The notes below the pieces were generated by a model. It was not told where the DNA came from. It ran no database searches and saw nothing but the letters and a program-made list of their open reading frames with translations. A stretch of 52,184 nt of DNA, from positions 1 to 52,184 of the forward strand of contig NZ_JAINDZ010000032.1 of NCBI RefSeq assembly GCF_019802345.1. The letters are read 5' to 3'. Shown here in pieces: positions 1,704-51,616 of the stretch. A program made the translations under genes and the position numbers. This DNA comes from Methylosinus sp. Sm6 (GTDB lineage: Bacteria; Pseudomonadota; Alphaproteobacteria; Rhizobiales; Beijerinckiaceae). The number at the start of each line of letters is the position of its first letter. Positions within the stretch are counted from its first letter, which is position 1.

Positions 1704-3503
1704 TCATAACAGACAAGCGGCGACGTGCTGCAGCCAATCGCCGATTTGCGGGAACGTGTGCGTGAGCCTATCGATAACCAATGCAACGGCGCCGCATCCA
1801 CCGCCTACTTTCGCGCCAGGGAGCGCGCGCTTGGCCCATCTCGTCAGCGCCGGGCCGACAGCGTCGCCCCATTTGCCCGCTTCTCTCACGACGCTCTTAT
1901 CGGCATGGCTCGCGAACTTCTTTCCTGCGCGCTTCGCCGTGCCTGCGACACCGACCATCGGAGAAATTGCCGCTTCAGCAATCGCCTTGACCACATTCTC
2001 CATGCTCGTGACGAGGTCTTCCGCCAAGAGATCGGCGCCGGCCGCGATCGGATCGACGCACGTGGTTTCCGCATCGCGCTGCGCGGCGAGGCGGCTCGCC
2101 ATCTCGCTCACGATCGACGCGATTTCCTGCTCGACGAATTCCGCGGCCTCCGTTTCGCGCAGAGCATCGGCGAATTCGGCGGCGATGCGCGGCGTCGCCT
2201 CGCGCTGCTCGGCGGTCAGCCGGTCCTTTTCGGCGTTGGCTTTGAATTCGCGCCATTTCGGAAACTGTCGCACGGTGCTATCGAAAGCGCGAGTCACCGC
2301 GAGATAATCGGCGGCGAGCGTGCTCGGCCATTCGGCGACGACGCTCGCGGCGTAAGCTTCGAGCTTTTCCTGCTCATGCGCGAGCCGGAACAATTGCTCC
2401 TGAGTCGGCCGTTTCGTCGGGATGCGGTCAACCAGACGACGCAGAGATGCGGTCGCCCGCCTGTCGATGTTCGATTCCGCTTCGAGGCTGTCGACGAGAT
2501 CAGCGAATTGCTGCTTCAGCGCGCGCAGGGCGGCATTGAGCGCGCGCGCATCGAGATCGGCGCCGATCGGGCCGTTGCGGAGGCGGATTTTCCCGTCCGC
2601 GGCGATCGGCTCGATCGCGGCTGGCCTAGGTCGGGGAAGATTGGGTGTCTGGCGCAAGCCAGGAGGACGCACGATCTCTGCGTCGACCGAGTCTGCTATC
2701 TCAGCAATTTCCAGCATATTCTTTGTCGCGCTTTTTGTCAGCCGCGCGATTGCCTGCGCAAGCAGCGCATTCTGCTCGGCGGGGTCTTTCTCTCGCGGGT
2801 CGACCGGAAGCGTCGCGAAAAGAAGCTCGATCTCCTCGGACAATTCCTCTCCCACGAGGCGCCGTTGGTACCAGTCGAGCCACGGCCGCCAATGTTCCTC
2901 CGCGACGAGCGAGCGCCAGCGCGTCCAATGTTTTTTCGCCCAGTCGGGCGCGCCCTGCGGCCAGAGAGGATCGCCCGAGATTTCTGACGCCGACCGGCCC
3001 TCTTCGAGCGCGTCGACGTCGGCAGACAATGAACGCCAAAACGAGCGATCGGCGTCGAAGCGGCTGGTCACGCCAGCGGCATGATCGGCGGCTTCGCTGG
3101 CGCCCTCGGACGGGACGTGGACAACTCCGACGAGGCGAGCGGCGTAGCCGGCGGCGTCTCCGGCGAACCAGTTTTGTTCGGAGCCAAAATTACCGGCGAC
3201 TTTGGCTGATTTAGAGGCTTTGGCCACCGGGAGGCCATCAGCGTGGGTCGGATATCTGCCTGCCGCCCGAGCCAAAGCCGTGGCCCAAAACAATGCTAGC
3301 GCCAATCGTTCATACTGAGGCGAAATCGAATGTGGGCCTGCGTCGCCGAACTGACCCACCGATGGCAGCATGCGAAGCGTCGCTCGTGCTGCGATGACTA
3401 TGGCGGCCTGCCGCTGCCGTTGGACCGGCAGAGCGTCGATCCATCTTTGCAGGCTTGTCCCGCTGTTAATCGGTGGCTCGCCGCTCACATCCAATCCAGT
3501 CAC
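1704..3503 (-). CDS. Unrecognised 599-aa protein
   Basis: No family is recognised with confidence. The start is a GTG at 3503 with a good GGAGG about 7 nt upstream. The N-terminal part contains a segment around residues 24-48 rich in Ala/Arg (IVIAARATLRMLP) of a kind I associate with uncharacterised rhizobial proteins. The middle (about 170-260) is Trp-rich (WTRWRSLVAEEHWRPWLDW). A long mostly helical, charged region (about 330-500) looks coiled-coil-prone. The C-terminal end contains Gly/Ala-rich segments (around 505-560) that could be a weak membrane-associated helix, but no clear transmembrane segment is visible. There is no signal peptide. It stands alone between a repeat block and a gene-poor stretch, which suggests accessory DNA. 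Function is unknown. Confidence 0.7.
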   Translation of the reverse strand: MTGLDVSGEPPINSGTSLQRWIDALPVQRQRQAAIVIAARATLRMLPSVGQFGDAGPHSISPQYERLALALFWATALARAAGRYPTHADGLPVAKASKSAKVAGNFGSEQNWFAGDAAGYAARLVGVVHVPSEGASEAADHAAGVTSRFDADRSFWRSLSADVDALEEGRSASEISGDPLWPQGAPDWAKKHWTRWRSLVAEEHWRPWLDWYQRRLVGEELSEEIELLFATLPVDPREKDPAEQNALLAQAIARLTKSATKNMLEIAEIADSVDAEIVRPPGLRQTPNLPRPRPAAIEPIAADGKIRLRNGPIGADLDARALNAALRALKQQFADLVDSLEAESNIDRRATASLRRLVDRIPTKRPTQEQLFRLAHEQEKLEAYAASVVAEWPSTLAADYLAVTRAFDSTVRQFPKWREFKANAEKDRLTAEQREATPRIAAEFADALRETEAAEFVEQEIASIVSEMASRLAAQRDAETTCVDPIAAGADLLAEDLVTSMENVVKAIAEAAISPMVGVAGTAKRAGKKFASHADKSVVREAGKWGDAVGPALTRWAKRALPGAKVGGGCGAVALVIDRLTHTFPQIGDWLQHVAACLL

Positions 3504-4132
3504 GAAAGTCCTCCACTCTCACGCGAGCATGGCGTCGAGTCCACGGTTGCGCAAGGCTGAGTCGAGGACGCCCAACCCTGGCCACAGATTCCCCAGTGAA
3601 TTGCACAGCATTGCGCGAGAGGCGTTCGAAGTTGAGATGCGCGAAGCGCACCGCCTGCGGCGGTGTCCAGTCAATGGCGGCGTGCCGCCGGTGTTCCTGA
3701 GCGCCGCGCTCCCTTGACACTCACAAGAAAATATTCCTATACTCCGTCACCCTCGCCGAACGGCAAGGGCTTCGCCCGGGCCGCGGGGCCGGCGAGGGGG
3801 CGGTTTTCGAGAGACGCGGGACGGCTGCCCCCGTCGGCGCGCTCGATCGCTCCTCCGCCGGTCCGGCTTCTCCTTCGTGCGGAGGGCCTTTGGAGACAAA
3901 GGCGAAAGCCGGCCTGAATGTCCGAGAGTCGCGCGGGGATAGATTACCCGAGAGGCGGAAAACAACCCTGGCTCCGGAGGCGGTGTAAAATAACAGGCGG
4001 ACCGCGTCCGGGACCTCGCGTCTTCCGAATGCGCTTTTTCACAAAGGCCGTGGCCAACGGAGGCCGCGGCGGTCCTGGACGACCTTGTCCACCCGCTCGC
4101 GACGGCGCGGCGGGGCGCCCGCGCGTGTCTTC
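3504..4132. other. Gene-poor stretch with no supported protein gene
   Basis: About 630 bases between the 599-aa gene and the HbpS-like gene. Short open frames exist on both strands but have no homology I recognise and no good ribosome sites. The stretch contains a strong consensus promoter on the + strand (see 3714-3743) followed by GC-rich segments that can fold, so an untranslated RNA is possible. Confidence 0.5.
3714..3743 (+). promoter_or_regulatory. Sigma-70-like promoter with no obvious gene downstream
   Basis: TTGACA at 3714-3719 and TATACT at 3738-3743, separated by 18 bases, within an AT-rich island in otherwise GC-rich DNA. The nearest + strand gene is the thioredoxin at 4781, more than 1 kb away and beyond an opposing gene. 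The downstream sequence (3745-4130) is not coding as far as I can see. Confidence 0.5.
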
Positions 4133-4567
4133 TCAGGTGCGCCAGGGATGCGCCGGCAGATCGCTGACGCCGACCACTGCGACGCCGGCCTCCGCGACCG
4201 CATGGTCGTTCTCGACCGAGCTGCCGCTCACGCCGATCGCGCCGATGAGCACGCCGTTCTCGTCGACGATGGGCAGGCCGCCGGGAAAGGTGATGAGCCC
4301 CTGGTTCGAATGCTCGATGCCATAGAGCGGGCCGCCCGGTTGCGACAGCTTGCCGATCTCGCCGGTCGGCATGCCGAAGAAGACGGCGGTCTTCGCCTTC
4401 TTGATGGCGATGTCGATGCTGCCGACCCAGGCGTCGTCCATGCGATGGAAGGCCTTCAGATCGGCGCCGGAATCGACGACGGCGATGCACATTTTGGTGC
4501 CGAGCTCGGCGGCGCGCTGGCGCGCGGCGGCGATGGCGGCGTCCGCCGCGGCGATGTCGACATGCAT
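4133..4567 (-). CDS. HbpS/GlcG (DUF336) family protein
   Basis: A 144-aa protein with the typical single-domain layout of the GlcG/HbpS family: an N-terminal helix rich in Ala ([11 protein letters not shown]), the [20 protein letters not shown] core, and the C-terminal [20 protein letters not shown] block. Members bind haem or small ligands, or sit near glycolate, redox or cobalamin genes; the actual role varies. There is no signal peptide in this copy, so it should be cytosolic. The ATG has a GAAGG 9 nt upstream. It is divergent from the periplasmic thioredoxin gene and not obviously in an operon. The family assignment is good, the ligand is unknown. Confidence 0.85.
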
Positions 4568-4780
4568 GGTGGAGCCTTCTTTCGGCAGGAGGGACAGGGG
4601 CGGGGTCGGCCATCAGATGGCGGGAGCGAGGCTTGGTTTCAAGTCGCGCGCCCCCTGCGCATTTCGACGCGGCCGCGCGTAACGCTTCGGCTCCGGCGCG
4701 CGAAGATGAGGAGGGAGCGGCCCGCCGCCGCTTCGCCGGCGGTCCGCCGCCGGACGCAGACGCCAATTGAGGACTTCGCC

Positions 4781-5167
4781 ATGCGCTCTCGCCACACTCT
4801 CGCCTTCGCCGCCATCGCCGCGCTGATCTCCGCGCCGCTCTCCGCCGCCGAGCGTCACGCCTATTCGGCGAAGGCGTTCGACGCCGCGCAGGCGGCGGGC
4901 GGGCCGATCCTCGTCGAGGTTCACGCGCCCTGGTGCCCGACCTGCAAGGCGCAGTCGGCCGTGCTGGAAAAGCTGGAGGCGCAGGAGAAATTCGCCGGAC
5001 TGCAGGTCTTCACTGTCGATTTCGACAGCCAGAAGGACGCGCTGGCCCGCTTTCGCGCACGCATGCAGAGCACGCTGATCGCTTATCACGGCAAGGACGA
5101 GAAGGGCCGCTCCACCGGCGAGACGGGCGAGGCGGCGATCGCCGCCCTTCTGGACAGGACGCAATGA
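4781..5167 (+). CDS. Periplasmic thioredoxin-like protein
   Basis: 128 aa with a signal peptide (residues 1-22, ending ...PLSAA) and a thioredoxin fold carrying the active-site motif WCPTC (Cys52 and Cys55). The strand-rich part LVEVHAPWCPTCKA and the following helix are standard for the family. Its stop codon overlaps the ATG of the next gene (ATGA), a CcdA/DsbD-like transporter, so the two are translationally coupled. Together they make a two-gene version of DsbD: the membrane protein passes electrons from cytosolic thioredoxin and this protein delivers them to periplasmic disulfides, for example in cytochrome c maturation or copper-protein handling. The ATG is preceded by TGAGGA. Confidence 0.88.
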   Translation: MRSRHTLAFAAIAALISAPLSAAERHAYSAKAFDAAQAAGGPILVEVHAPWCPTCKAQSAVLEKLEAQEKFAGLQVFTVDFDSQKDALARFRARMQSTLIAYHGKDEKGRSTGETGEAAIAALLDRTQ

Positions 5168-47485: not shown

Positions 47486-47887
47486 TCAGTCGAGCCGCAC
47501 TTCCTGCAGTTTCTTGCGGTTCAGCCGGTCAGATCCGTAGGTGAGATAGCGGATTTCGGTCGGCTGGGTCGCGCCCGGCGCGAGGCAGAAAGAGGGCGAG
47601 GGCGTGAAGCGGCCGTCCGGCCCCGCGAAACAGTCCGAATAGAGCACCTCGCAGTCGAAGGACGTATCCTGCTTGGGCGCGGCGCGCAGCGCGAGGGCGC
47701 GCGCCTTCTCGACGGCGGAAGCGCAGACGGAGGCCTCGAAGCCGAGGGCGCGGCACTGCTGCGTCGTCGCCATCAGCGTTCCGCCGGAGGCGCAGGCCGG
47801 CGTGCGGCGCAGGACGAAATACCAGGTCGCGGCGCCGAGGACGACGAGCGTCGCGGCGGCGACGAACAGGAATGAGGGGCGGGCCAT
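47486..47887 (-). CDS. DUF1190-like small secreted or membrane-anchored protein
   Basis: 133 aa with an N-terminal membrane helix (FLFVAAATLVVLGAATWYFV) and a Cys-rich outer part: ACASGG, QQCRALG, SVCASAVEKA, FDCEVLYSDCFAG, SFCLAPG. The spacing around QQC..., A..C and CE..YSDC recalls DUF1190 (YgiB-like) proteins, which are of unknown function. Confidence in the family is moderate. It is convergent with the DUF3108 gene across the repeat pair. Confidence 0.65.
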   Translation of the reverse strand: MARPSFLFVAAATLVVLGAATWYFVLRRTPACASGGTLMATTQQCRALGFEASVCASAVEKARALALRAAPKQDTSFDCEVLYSDCFAGPDGRFTPSPSFCLAPGATQPTEIRYLTYGSDRLNRKKLQEVRLD

Positions 47888-48088
47888 TGCTTCTGCTCCA
47901 GGCGAGACGTTTTCTTGCCGCCGCGCCTCTCTATCCGCCGGGGGCGGGGCGCGGCAAGGGCGTCGCGCCGATCGTCCTCGGCCAGGACGGTCGCCAAAGA
48001 CCGCCGCAGCGCGCTATTTGATAAAGGGCTCGATACGGCGCGGGGAGCTCACGCTCGTCGCCGTGGATCAAACGTCCGAGGCGGCGAG

Positions 48089-51000
48089 ATGCAGGGCTTG
48101 ACCAGCGCCGAGGCGCGCGCGCGTCTGCTGAGATTTGGGCCGAACACGCTGCCCGAGCCGCGGCCGCCGTCGATTCTTTCCGTGTTCCTGCGGCAGTTTC
48201 TCAGTCCGCTCATCTATATTCTGGTCGCGGCGGCGCTCGTCGCGCTCCTCATCGGCGACGCCAAGGACGCGCTGTTCATCGCCATTGTCCTGCTCATCAA
48301 TGGCGTGATCGGCGCCGTGCAGGAATATTCGGCGAGCCGCGCGGCGGCGGCGCTGCGGGAGCAGGATCAGCCGCATGCGCTCGTCATTCGCGACGGCGTG
48401 CGCATGGACATCGATGCGCGCGAGCTCGTTCCCGGCGATTGCGCGCTGCTCGAGGCCGGGCGGCGCGCGCCGGCCGACATTCGACTCGTCGAGGCCGACG
48501 ATCTGCGCTGCGACGAATCGCTGCTCACCGGCGAGTCTCTGCCGGTGCGCAAGGCGCCGCAAACGGCGCCGTTCGGGCGCGAGGCGGAGCGCTCCGGCAT
48601 GGCTTTCGCCGGCTCCATGGTCACGCGCGGACGCGGGGCCGGCGTGGTGGAGGCGACCGGCCGCGCGACGCAAGTGGGCCGAATCGCCGAGTCGTTGGCC
48701 GAGCCCTCGATCTCGCAGCCGCCGCTGATGATCCGCATGGAGCGCTTCTCGCGCATGGTCGCCATCATCATCGGCGCGGCCATCGCCGTGCTGGCGGCGA
48801 TCGGCTTCGCGCGGCAGATGCCGCTCGTCCAGATCTTCATGATGGCGGTGGGACTCGCGGTCGCCGCCATTCCGGAGGGCCTGCCCGTCGCCATTTCGGT
48901 CGCGCTCGCGATCGGCATGCGCCGCATGGCCAAGGCCAATGTCATCGTGCGCAGAATGCCGGCGGTCGAGGCGCTCGGCTCCTGCACGATGATCGCCTCC
49001 GACAAGACCGGCACGCTCACGCTCAACCAGCTGACGGTCACGACGATCGCTCTGCCCGACGGCACGGTGCTGACCTGCGAGCCGGACGGAGAAACGCTCG
49101 CCCGCGAATCCGGCGCGGCCGATGCCGCCGGCGAGCGCGCCGATCTCCTGGTGGCGGCGCTGCTGCGCGCCGCGGCGCTGCCCAATGAGGCGGAGATCTG
49201 GCAGGAGCGGGAAGGCATGCGGACCGTGGGCGACACTGTCGATGTCGCGCTGCTCGTCGCCGCACATCGCGGCGGCGTTCCGCACGACGCGCTGCGCGAG
49301 CGCTATCCGCTCATCAAGCGCATTCCCTATGAGCCGGACATTCGCTACGCGGCCTCCTTCCATCGGCACGAGCAGGTCGGAACCGTGCGCGTGTTCGCCA
49401 AGGGCGCGCCGGAGGCGCTGATCCCGATGGCGAGCCGGATGGATGTCGGCGGCGAGGCGGTCCCGATCGACCGCGACGCGATCATCGCGCAGAAGGACGC
49501 GATGTCGGCGCAGGGGCTGCGCGTGCTCGCCTTCGTCGAGGGCGAGGTCGCGGCCGAGCCCGACGGCGAGTACGGCCCCGGCCATCTCGACAATCTCGTC
49601 TTCCTCGGCCTCGCCGGCATGCAGGACCCGCTGCGCCCGGAGGCTAGGCGCGCCATTCGCGCGTGCTACGGGGCCGGCGTCGAGGTCGCGATGGTGACGG
49701 GCGATTCGGCCGGAACGGCGGCCGCCGTCGCCGAGCAGGCGGGCATGGAGTTCACGCCCGAGCAGGTCGTGACCGGCGCCGATGTGCGGCGCGCGGAGGA
49801 ACTGGGCGAGGCGACGCTCGACGAGCTCACGCGCCGCGCGCGCGTCTATGCGCGGGTGGAGCCGATCCAGAAGCTCGCCATCGTCCTGTCGCTCGCGCGC
49901 AATGGCCATTTCGTGGCGGTGACCGGCGACGGCGTCAATGACGCGCCGGCGCTCAAGCATGCGCATGTCGGCGTCGCCATGGGCAAGCATGGCACGGATG
50001 TCGCCAAGGAGAGCGCCGACATCATCGTCGCCGACGATAATTTCGCCTCCATCGTGCGCGGCGTGCGGGAGGGCCGCGTCGCCTATTCCAATATTCGCAA
50101 GGTGATCTTTCTGCTGGTGTCGACCGGCGCGGCGGAGCTTCTGCTGTTCCTGCTGGCGATTCCGCTCGGCATGCCGATGCCGCTGCTGCCGGTGCAATTG
50201 CTCTGGCTCAACCTCGTCACCAATGGCGTGCAGCATGTGGCGCTCGCCGCCGAGAAGCCCGAAGGCGACGAGCTGCGCTATCCGCCGCGCCGGCCGGAGG
50301 AGCCGATCTTCGATCGCGTGATGGTCGAGCGCAATGTCTATTCGGCGATCGTGATGGCCTGCGTCGGCTTCGGCGTGTTCGACTGGCTGCTCGACCATGG
50401 CTATGACGAGGCCCATGCGCGCAATCTTCTGCTGCTGCTGTTCGTGATCTTCGAGAATTTCCAGGCGCTCAACGCGCTGTCGGAGCGGCACTCGGTGTTC
50501 TATCGCAGCCTGCTCGCCAGCCCCTTCCTGCTGGCCAGCGTCGTCGGCGCGCAGGCCATTCATCTCGCGGCCATGCGGTGGCCGCCGCTCGCGGAGCTGC
50601 TGCGGATCGCTCCGGTGACCTTTCGGGAATGGGGCTATCTGATGCTCGCGGGGTCGTCTCTGCTCGTCGTGATCGAAATCGCCAAATGGCTGGGGCGCCG
50701 CCGGGGCCCGCGCGCCGCCGCGCCCATCCGCGCGCCGGCGTGGGGCGTTTCGCAGCGCGCCGAGGCCAAGGATTGGCGATGGGCGGGCCTCGTCGGCAGC
50801 CTCGCCGTCGCCGCGATCGCCGGCTCGCTCTATCTCGCGACGCGGCGCGAGCCGATCCTGGGGCGGGAACCGCCCGGCGCGCCAGCCGAGCGCGCCGTCG
50901 AGGCGCACGGCGTGGTCTCGCTGACGCCGGCGGAGGCGGTGAGGGCCAAAATCGCCGGCGTGCTGGGCTCGGTCGATTGTCCCGTCGGCGCGAGCGTCGC

Positions 51001-51616
51001 AGCCGGGCAGATCTGCGCCCGCATCGATTCCCGCGCCCTCGACACGGCCCTCGCCCAGGCGCGAGAGGCGCGGGACGCGGCGGCCCGCCGCGCCGAGAGC
51101 AGCGACGTGGCGGAGAAGGCGGCGAAGGCGGCGCTGGAGCGCGCCGAGGCCGGCAAGGCCGCGCGCCGGACCGCGCGGGCGCGCGCGGCGCTGTCCCGCG
51201 CGCAGAACCGGCAGGCGCGCGACGCGGCGCAGCTCGAGCGTCGAAAGACCGAGCTCGCAAAGGCGCAGGCCGATCTCGCCGGCGCGGAGATCGTCGCGCC
51301 CATCGCCGGAACAGTGGCGGAGCGCAACGCCGCGCGCGGCCGAACGGTCGCGCCCTCGGACGCCAAGCCATTGTTTCTCATAGAGCCGCAGCGGCCCCTG
51401 CGCGTCGCCGCGACGCTGGACGCGGCGAGCGCGCCCCGGGCGCAGCTGGGCGATCCGGCGCTGGTCTCGATCGGCGGACAGGAGCTGGCCGGAACCGTAG
51501 TCGAGGCCGAGGCGCTCCCGGACGGGGGGCGGCGGATCGTGGTCGCGGCGGAAAAGCCCGAGCCGCCGCCGCCGCCGGGCGCCGAAGCGACGGTGAAAAT
51601 TCGGCCGGCGCCGTGA
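48089..51616 (+). CDS. P-type cation ATPase fused to a HlyD-type membrane-fusion (adaptor) domain
   Basis: 1175 aa in one frame from ATG 48089 (GAGG 7 nt upstream). Residues 1-870 are a type II P-type ATPase: GLTSAEARARLLRFGPNTLP start, TGES at about 146, PEGLP in helix M4 (about 264), DKTGT at 305, GDGVNDAP at about 613, and M6 LLWLNLVTNGVQHVALAAEK, in which an Asn replaces the SERCA Asp (NLVTDG). A further helix (WAGLVGSLAVAAIAGSLYL, about 895-915) is followed by an adaptor: half-lipoyl motif DCPVGASVAAGQICARID, a coiled coil (about 985-1065), second lipoyl half AEIVAPIAGTVAERNAARG, then a beta-barrel. Ten ATPase helices plus one would place the adaptor in the periplasm. The transported ion cannot be told; the lack of CPC argues against copper. 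Confidence 0.9.
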   Translation: MQGLTSAEARARLLRFGPNTLPEPRPPSILSVFLRQFLSPLIYILVAAALVALLIGDAKDALFIAIVLLINGVIGAVQEYSASRAAAALREQDQPHALVIRDGVRMDIDARELVPGDCALLEAGRRAPADIRLVEADDLRCDESLLTGESLPVRKAPQTAPFGREAERSGMAFAGSMVTRGRGAGVVEATGRATQVGRIAESLAEPSISQPPLMIRMERFSRMVAIIIGAAIAVLAAIGFARQMPLVQIFMMAVGLAVAAIPEGLPVAISVALAIGMRRMAKANVIVRRMPAVEALGSCTMIASDKTGTLTLNQLTVTTIALPDGTVLTCEPDGETLARESGAADAAGERADLLVAALLRAAALPNEAEIWQEREGMRTVGDTVDVALLVAAHRGGVPHDALRERYPLIKRIPYEPDIRYAASFHRHEQVGTVRVFAKGAPEALIPMASRMDVGGEAVPIDRDAIIAQKDAMSAQGLRVLAFVEGEVAAEPDGEYGPGHLDNLVFLGLAGMQDPLRPEARRAIRACYGAGVEVAMVTGDSAGTAAAVAEQAGMEFTPEQVVTGADVRRAEELGEATLDELTRRARVYARVEPIQKLAIVLSLARNGHFVAVTGDGVNDAPALKHAHVGVAMGKHGTDVAKESADIIVADDNFASIVRGVREGRVAYSNIRKVIFLLVSTGAAELLLFLLAIPLGMPMPLLPVQLLWLNLVTNGVQHVALAAEKPEGDELRYPPRRPEEPIFDRVMVERNVYSAIVMACVGFGVFDWLLDHGYDEAHARNLLLLLFVIFENFQALNALSERHSVFYRSLLASPFLLASVVGAQAIHLAAMRWPPLAELLRIAPVTFREWGYLMLAGSSLLVVIEIAKWLGRRRGPRAAAPIRAPAWGVSQRAEAKDWRWAGLVGSLAVAAIAGSLYLATRREPILGREPPGAPAERAVEAHGVVSLTPAEAVRAKIAGVLGSVDCPVGASVAAGQICARIDSRALDTALAQAREARDAAARRAESSDVAEKAAKAALERAEAGKAARRTARARAALSRAQNRQARDAAQLERRKTELAKAQADLAGAEIVAPIAGTVAERNAARGRTVAPSDAKPLFLIEPQRPLRVAATLDAASAPRAQLGDPALVSIGGQELAGTVVEAEALPDGGRRIVVAAEKPEPPPPPGAEATVKIRPAP

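Follow-up and report, generated by a model that had tools for sequence, protein, structure and literature searches.

The DNA analysed here, referred to as the window, is the whole 52,184-nucleotide contig NZ_JAINDZ010000032.1 of Methylosinus sp. Sm6. Close to its end lies a gene (48089-51616, forward strand) that encodes, in a single open frame of 1175 residues with its sole stop codon at the end, a P2-type (type II) P-type ATPase followed by an additional membrane helix and an adaptor module resembling MacA. The usual picture of P-type ATPases is that of pumps working on their own, whereas periplasmic adaptors are known as components of ABC, RND or MFS pumps. The features of the gene and the evidence for each are as follows:

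48089..51616, + strand, whole fused gene, 1175 residues, stop codon included in the coordinates (translation, own-genome search, start of the G006 ortholog)
48092..50692, + strand, type II (P2) P-type ATPase, residues 2-868, with M4 PEGLP, M5 E683 and M6 N708..N712 (NLVTNG) (Pfam, SPCA1 alignment)
50693..50782, + strand, Arg/Ala-rich linker, residues 869-898 (translation)
50783..50845, + strand, extra membrane helix, about residues 899-919 (hydropathy, 899-917 with score 1.83; low-confidence helix in the module model)
50936..51028, + strand, barrel-sandwich (lipoyl-like) domain, first half, with Cys964 and Cys976 (alignment, Cys positions)
51029..51286, + strand, coiled-coil hairpin, residues 981-1066, without the RxxxLxxxxxxS tip motif (model helices with confidence 82-96, motif scans)
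51290..51382, + strand, barrel-sandwich domain, second half, residues 1068-1098 (HlyD_3, alignment)
51383..51604, + strand, beta-barrel domain, residues 1099-1172, with no membrane-proximal domain after it (model strands, alignment, length after Cys964)

The ATG start at 48089 is supported by the ortholog of another genome of the genus (G006), which has the same MQGLTSAEAR start, and a search of the own genome recovered one full-length copy of the protein, with no internal stops. The motifs TGES, PEGLP, DKTGT and GDGVNDAP are all present, and the Pfam domains Cation_ATPase_N, E1-E2_ATPase, Cation_ATPase, Hydrolase and Cation_ATPase_C follow each other in this order over residues 2-868, as expected of a P2-type ATPase. 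The adaptor part is matched within residues 937-1142 by HlyD_D23 (1.7e-6, just below the Pfam gathering score) and HlyD_3 (1.6e-5, above it), and over residues 948-1169 by the NCBIfam model RND_mfp (6.8e-18, below its cut-off). When a profile of seven modules was compared with solved structures, MacA (4dk0) was the best match (4.6e-27), and the barrel-sandwich halves, the hairpin and the beta-barrel of a MacA-like adaptor were all recovered by profile, with partial agreement from the structural model. The AlphaFold model of the module has a mean predicted local distance difference test score (pLDDT) of 63.5, with blocks of 82-96 in the hairpin helices and about 63-76 in the beta-barrel strands; confidence is low for the lipoyl halves (below 50) and for the membrane helix, which scores about 50. 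A Foldseek search with this model had MacA chains among its five best hits, with 9qgy and 5nik heading the list and TM-scores near 0.4. The full-length model reached a mean pLDDT of only 38, so that it was not used and gave no Cys964-Cys976 distance. An earlier note on this DNA had described a complete type II P-type ATPase and an adaptor in one polypeptide, which the open frame, motifs and Pfam domains bear out. The lipoyl halves, coiled coil and beta-barrel it listed are present by profile and alignment, the model being confident for the hairpin while the lipoyl halves remain below 50.

MacA of the MacAB-TolC system has the same order of barrel-sandwich, hairpin and beta-barrel and is the closest match by structure profile, but it is a separate protein with an ABC partner, whereas the window module is fused behind a P-type ATPase and lacks both the RLS tip motif (RxxxLxxxxxxS) and the membrane-proximal domain.

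Uninterrupted ATPase-adaptor fusions were found in six other records representing five species-level genomes, namely plasmids of two M. iwaonis strains (1093 residues), a Methylocystis metagenome-assembled genome (MAG; 1098 residues), the LBMAG Methylocystaceae MAG (1169 residues), G006 (85% identity over 1179 residues) and G244, which belongs to the same family but another genus. Since the same fusion is open in independent genomes, the window gene is not an assembly join. Third-position G+C also stays at 0.84-0.93 along the gene and at 0.87-0.91 at and past the junction, while second-position G+C climbs there from 0.38 to about 0.61, a reflection of the many Ala and Arg residues in the module. 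An assembly or frame artefact joining two genes is thus ruled out by the independent genomes and plasmids and by the steady third-position G+C, leaving it next to no credibility; nothing was found for it in the window, the nearest thing to a point in its favour being an apparent frameshift inside the P1B ATPase part of a Methylocapsa relative (L049, below). Two separate genes in close relatives, which the earlier note had named as speaking against the fusion, were not seen. In a search of plasmids, two Methylocystis rows come first, and the 38 further rows listed cover the ATPase part only, at about 59-64% identity, and the rhizobial homologue L004 stops after the ATPase, at 871 residues. A tblastn search of plasmids with the window module alone gave no match, probably owing to its Ala/Arg-rich composition.

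The fusion is not peculiar to this ATPase, as four proteins of the own genome carry the module at their C-terminus. In addition to the window protein these are:

L015, contig C44 8341-11574, - strand, P1B-type ATPase (TPCPL) with hemerythrin and module, 1077 residues (Pfam, NCBIfam)
L016, contig C86 9765-10883, - strand, CyoD of bo3 quinol oxidase with module, 372 residues (NCBIfam TIGR02847)
L017, contig C74 6347-7762, - strand, AHSA1/SRPBCC protein with module, 471 residues (Pfam)

In the own-genome profile search the four fusions scored E-values of 1.4e-99 or better, with the next adaptor at 3.9e-17, using a profile that had been built with all four included; with a single query the three other fusions were again the top adaptor matches (1.5e-27, 5.5e-21 and 3.3e-19), followed at 7.7e-8. 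In the 15 other adaptor-like proteins recovered by the profile search, the cysteine pair is absent from the aligned positions.

L015 scores 506.7 bits against TIGR01525 (cut-off 346) and matches Pfam Hemerythrin at 9.1e-8, and is thus a P1B-type ATPase with a C-terminal hemerythrin. P1B-5 ATPases of this kind are described in A. cellulolyticus and in S. meliloti (Nia) (PMC9388753, excerpt); L015 shares their P1B core (TPCPL) and C-terminal hemerythrin and differs in adding a membrane helix and the adaptor module. Of the hemerythrin ligand pattern H-HxxxE-HxE-HxxxxD (PMC9388753, same excerpt), the HxE is present in L015 as HRE, while the other elements, HEREDE and HNAQEED, are shifted (by eye). 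L016 lies behind genes with COX2 and COX1 domains (Pfam) and a cyoC-like frame (by eye), and its CyoD domain scores above the TIGR02847 cut-off. It therefore has the domain and the COX neighbours of CyoD, subunit IV of cytochrome bo3 quinol oxidase, from which it differs by the adaptor module fused at its C-terminus.

The occurrence of the module was surveyed at three taxonomic levels with a profile of nine modules, all with the cysteine pair; adaptors lacking the pair were still recovered, so the pair was not forced. Among 10 genomes of the genus, the own one included, nine gave matches at 1e-40 or better, and the 20 matches comprise 17 fusions to known partners (in eight of the 10 genomes), two standalone adaptors and one protein cut by a contig edge (L111 of G304, omitted from further analysis). 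At the level of the order (297 genomes, 1e-55), five genomes matched besides the own one, with a fusion in G244 only; two of the remaining four were read and both have standalone adaptors, G079 and G145 being unread. At the level of the class (385 genomes, 1e-55) there were six other matches; the five that were read are standalone by eye, two of them with the cysteine pair, and L117 was not located by the pattern used. In both these surveys only the best few candidates per genome were scored. Named records add fusions from M. iwaonis, M. rosea, Methylocapsa polymorpha and two MAGs; judging by genus, the named hosts are methanotrophs. This gives 24 fused modules on five partner types:

P2 clade I, 6 fusions: window, L077, L102, L002, L003, L005
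P2 clade II, 5 fusions, 34-39% identical to clade I: L021, L080, L078, L106, L108
P1B-hemerythrin, 7 fusions: L015, L075, L081, L082, L109, L110, L049
CyoD, 3 fusions: L016, L076, L045
AHSA1, 3 fusions: L017, L079, L107

For 22 of the 24 the partner domains come from Pfam or NCBIfam scans, L003 and L108 being placed by BLAST, and the HlyD match is below the Pfam cut-off in L045 and some clade I proteins. The second M. iwaonis strain (SD4, L001) is a near copy and was left out of trees and counts. In Methylocapsa polymorpha pRX1 (L049) the P1B-hemerythrin-adaptor is laid out as two overlapping frames (1449-2330 and 2327-5023), and the gene table annotates only the adaptor end as a gene. The literature searched, judged by titles and the beginnings of abstracts and partly from the best-ranked entries of larger sets, describes no such fusion, in line with the earlier note's statement that no characterised example was known; two adaptor reviews, the first available only in part, contain no match for 'P-type'.

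The sampled fused modules share a common descent, with changes of partner. In a 40-row tree all 24 fused modules fall on one side of a branch and 16 standalone adaptors on the other (support 100/100), and the best tree has five partner changes among the fused modules, the minimum for five types being four. Two 37-row trees with 10 fused modules each, one of them built from sequences trimmed of the membrane helix and the greater part of the linker, show the same split (100/100 and 100/99). The standalone adaptors nearest to the fused modules are those that also have the cysteine pair: in the 37-row tree for which cysteines were counted, the pair is present in 12 of 12 rows of the joint clade and in none of the 25 outside (the 40-row tree took 10 of the pair-less standalone adaptors at hand, this one 25). 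The order of transfer is not settled, because L045 and L005 sit on long branches, some inner branches are weak, and neither the P1B-hemerythrin nor the P2 clade II nor the AHSA1 fusions group together at a single position.

In all 24 modules hydropathy reveals a hydrophobic stretch that precedes the first cysteine by 32-56 residues, those of L049 (1.55) and L107 (1.46) falling just below the line of 1.6. In the 21 P2, P1B-hemerythrin and AHSA1 fusions this helix is the added one, while the three CyoD fusions use for it the third and last helix of CyoD itself. Type II ATPases have ten helices and end in the cytosol, and the C-terminus of CyoD should be outside, according to the E. coli topology. 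Hence the module should be periplasmic every time, a helix having been added where the partner's C-terminus is cytosolic and not in CyoD; topology appears to limit domain transfer, with a helix added only where needed. For the window protein, the hydropathy scan resolved nine ATPase helices and the extra one at about 899-919, in agreement with the eleventh helix and the periplasmic side already proposed for it from the helix count.

Only six positions are invariant in the 24 fused modules (G957, C964, G973, C976, G1074 and G1084 in window numbering). Each module has exactly two cysteines, which sit in the lipoyl hairpin at positions mostly hydrophobic in other adaptors, and no third Cys or His is conserved among the 24. 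The pattern RxxxLxxxxxxS forms the TolC interface in MacA, AcrA and MexA (PMC3391258, excerpt). Scanned as a regular expression with Thr allowed for Ser, it is complete in only one of the fused modules, that of M. rosea (L021), and is absent from the window protein. By contrast, it was found in four of four cysteine-pair standalone adaptors scanned and in 21 of 32 parseable standalone rows of an earlier scan, in which one fused row (L110) and four of 36 standalone rows were unparseable and the pattern was misplaced in at least one standalone row, of EmrA type. Of two further standalones with the cysteine pair, L112 and L113, both inspected by eye, one keeps the motif while the other has Ala for Ser. 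The MacA-like standalones with the pair (L022, L050, L101, L105, L112, L113) have a CDYNT-like start and a CAKIDP-like end; their hosts are Bradyrhizobium, Burkholderia and other genomes, and five of the six keep the docking motif (two by eye). To judge by length, only two of the 24, L049 and L102, retain the membrane-proximal domain, with 318 and 282 residues, respectively, from the first cysteine to the end against 212 after Cys964 of the window protein, and the beta-barrel is missing as well from L002, L003 and L045.

Compared with near orthologs, the ratio of nonsynonymous to synonymous substitution rates (dN/dS) of the module is below one in all four pairs: 0.39 (P2), 0.46 (CyoD), 0.34 (AHSA1) and 0.53 (P1B-hemerythrin). 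The corresponding partner parts have 0.16 (P2), 0.19 (CyoD), 0.38 (AHSA1) and 0.17 (P1B, with 0.22 for the hemerythrin).

Among solved structures, the ATPase comes closest to SPCA1 (ATPase type 2C member 1) and to Listeria lmo0841, and its whole catalytic and membrane core is that of the P2-type calcium ATPases (PMR1/SPCA and SERCA-like). It differs from these in its C-terminal helix and adaptor, in scores short of the PMR1 and SERCA equivalog cut-offs (TIGR01522, 563 of 798 bits; TIGR01116, 522 of 703 bits) and in M6, where NLVTNG replaces the NIIMDG of SPCA1, with Asn in place of Asp. The M6 Asp of NIIMDG binds Ca2+. Given these scores and the missing Asp, a canonical calcium pump was rejected. 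NLVTNG is common to all six P2 clade I fusions and the unfused L004; SPCA1 lacks a Glu at the place aligned with the M5 Glu (E683), and the M4, M5 and M6 residues listed above are invariant in a four-row alignment.

Genes for a small metal-binding protein (SMBP) lie beside the P2 clade II fusions L108 and L021 (Pfam) and L078 (by eye), and Nramp genes beside the P2 fusion L106 and the P1B fusion L109 (Pfam), as well as L081 and L110 (by eye), with an EamA-type transporter gene in between in the P1B loci (Pfam for L109). AI-2E family transporter genes adjoin L080 and L005 (Pfam). These neighbours hint at metal handling in sister systems, rather than in the window itself. No one partner gene is constant across the fusion neighbourhoods, and no constant outer-membrane-factor gene was seen within a few kb of the six P2 clade I fusions (both by eye); outer-membrane factors are often encoded elsewhere. 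An outer-membrane-factor gene (Pfam OEP) lies directly downstream of L003, with an adaptor of its own next and an RND-like gene (the latter by eye), and another lies a few kb from the M. iwaonis fusion, in an MFS-HlyD cluster. The earlier observation that the window holds no TolC-like gene stands but says little, the window being a whole contig that ends 568 bases after the fused gene.

Taken together, these findings make the module look like a domain that was reused for another task, and less like a mere connector between a pump and the outer membrane. The explanation we favour, as a possibility that falls somewhat short of probable, is that of a cis-acting periplasmic scaffold, possibly disulphide-stapled, on a P2-type pump. 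On this view a P2-type ATPase acquired, at its C-terminus, a helix plus a periplasmic domain that derives from an efflux adaptor of the MacA kind. The intact catalytic motifs of the ATPase suggest that it transports a cation through the inner membrane as P-type pumps ordinarily do, while the module, placed in the periplasm by the helix count, would no longer dock TolC-like channels and would hold pump molecules together or in place, oligomerisation being the presumable benefit and a Cys964-Cys976 disulphide a possible staple of the barrel-sandwich part. The module would have descended once from cysteine-pair adaptors and then been passed among five partner kinds in these bacteria. MacA, AcrA and MexA form funnel-like hexamers (PMC3391258, excerpt). 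A scaffold that keeps the partner in an assembly at the periplasmic face, with the cysteine pair acting as staple or switch, would be the simplest common use: the relatives form rings, the docking tip is gone and the partners are as unlike as an oxidase subunit and a cytosolic protein.

Several observations weigh against this explanation. The module is constrained, yet more loosely than its partner in three of four pairs, where its dN/dS is two to three times the partner's, so that the constraint is weak; between two M. iwaonis strains it shows 10 nonsynonymous and five synonymous changes (dN 0.027, dS 0.035), too few to tell from neutral. Neither an oligomer nor a disulphide was observed, and neither can be modelled (full-length pLDDT 38, lipoyl halves below 50). 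The positive charges flanking the extra helix of the window protein are equal (3 and 3) and do not prove its orientation, which therefore rests on the helix count; over the 24 rows the flanking charges agree with the topology in many, not all. A looser R-x10-S occurs in 10 of the 24 fused modules, M. rosea included, some out of register, and docking may persist in some relatives such as M. rosea. Also, the cysteine pair occurs in standalone adaptors, most of them with the docking motif, and is not specific to a new role.

Other explanations take up some of the same evidence. If the cysteine pair sensed the periplasmic redox state or bound a soft metal such as Cu(I), thereby adjusting partner activity, it would be understandable that exactly two cysteines are invariant in 24 of 24 modules while just four other positions are, that the partners are cation pumps and an oxidase, that SMBP and Nramp genes adjoin fusions (L108 and L021; L106 and L109) and that one partner also has a hemerythrin, an oxygen- or iron-related domain (PMC9388753, excerpt). 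Such a sensor nevertheless appears rather unlikely, as a pair in the lipoyl hairpin at otherwise mostly hydrophobic positions would also be compatible with an ordinary structural disulphide, conservation extends to no further Cys or His, and the AHSA1 partner has no obvious redox role. The earlier note had instead proposed that one chain forms an ATP-driven pump of the tripartite kind, its adaptor part delivering the ion from the ATPase to a TolC-like channel. Homology to MacA (4.6e-27), the expected periplasmic side, the full docking motif of M. rosea, the longer adaptor C-terminal parts of L049 and L102 and the outer-membrane-factor genes near two fusions agree with it. For the window protein, however, we set direct TolC coupling aside and consider this handover improbable: the docking motif is absent here and from 23 of the 24 fusions, the membrane-proximal domain is missing, the module also sits on CyoD and AHSA1, which are not exporters, and no outer-membrane-factor gene is a constant neighbour, the one behind L003 having its own adaptor and RND-like gene. 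An outer-membrane conduit could still apply to members such as M. rosea.

A module that arose on its partner by chance and is decaying, tolerated and without function, would fit the looser selection in three of four pairs, the near-neutral M. iwaonis comparison and the loss of the beta-barrel from three modules and of the membrane-proximal domain from all but two of 24. We hold this to be quite improbable, given that the frame is open in all but one of the 24 (L049), that dN/dS is 0.34-0.53 with cysteines and glycines invariant, and that the module reached further partners, each time with the number of helices required by topology. A wider version of the scaffold, which we regard as a long shot, is a mobile envelope module in Methylocystis-type methanotrophs, in which the modules of pumps, quinol oxidase and AHSA1 protein would co-assemble into disulphide-locked mixed clusters in the periplasm or the lumen of intracytoplasmic membranes.

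Whichever of these applies, an adaptor lineage has been separated from its transporters and reused on five partner kinds, keeping its cysteine pair and mostly losing the docking motif, a pattern beyond what a single window could show. This raises the testable question of whether an adaptor ring can serve as a general periplasmic scaffold or switch, which for methanotrophs touches metal handling and respiration.

Some further features adjoin these loci. In Azospirillum (L023, L054), genes for a standalone MacA-like adaptor and ABC proteins lie next to a P-type ATPase gene annotated as mgtA. Antisense to the ATPase, the window has an open frame of 946 codons (48068-50908, - strand), probably a by-product of high-G+C codons and not a gene. 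Just past the fusion, at the contig end (51819-52106, - strand), there is a weak DUF2442 match (below cut-off), and a DUF2442-like gene also follows the fusion in G006 (by eye). Divergent from the fusion, 47486-47887 (- strand) encodes a small Cys-containing protein with a hydrophobic N-terminus, whose counterpart adjoins the fusion in G006 as well (L077 3346-3798).

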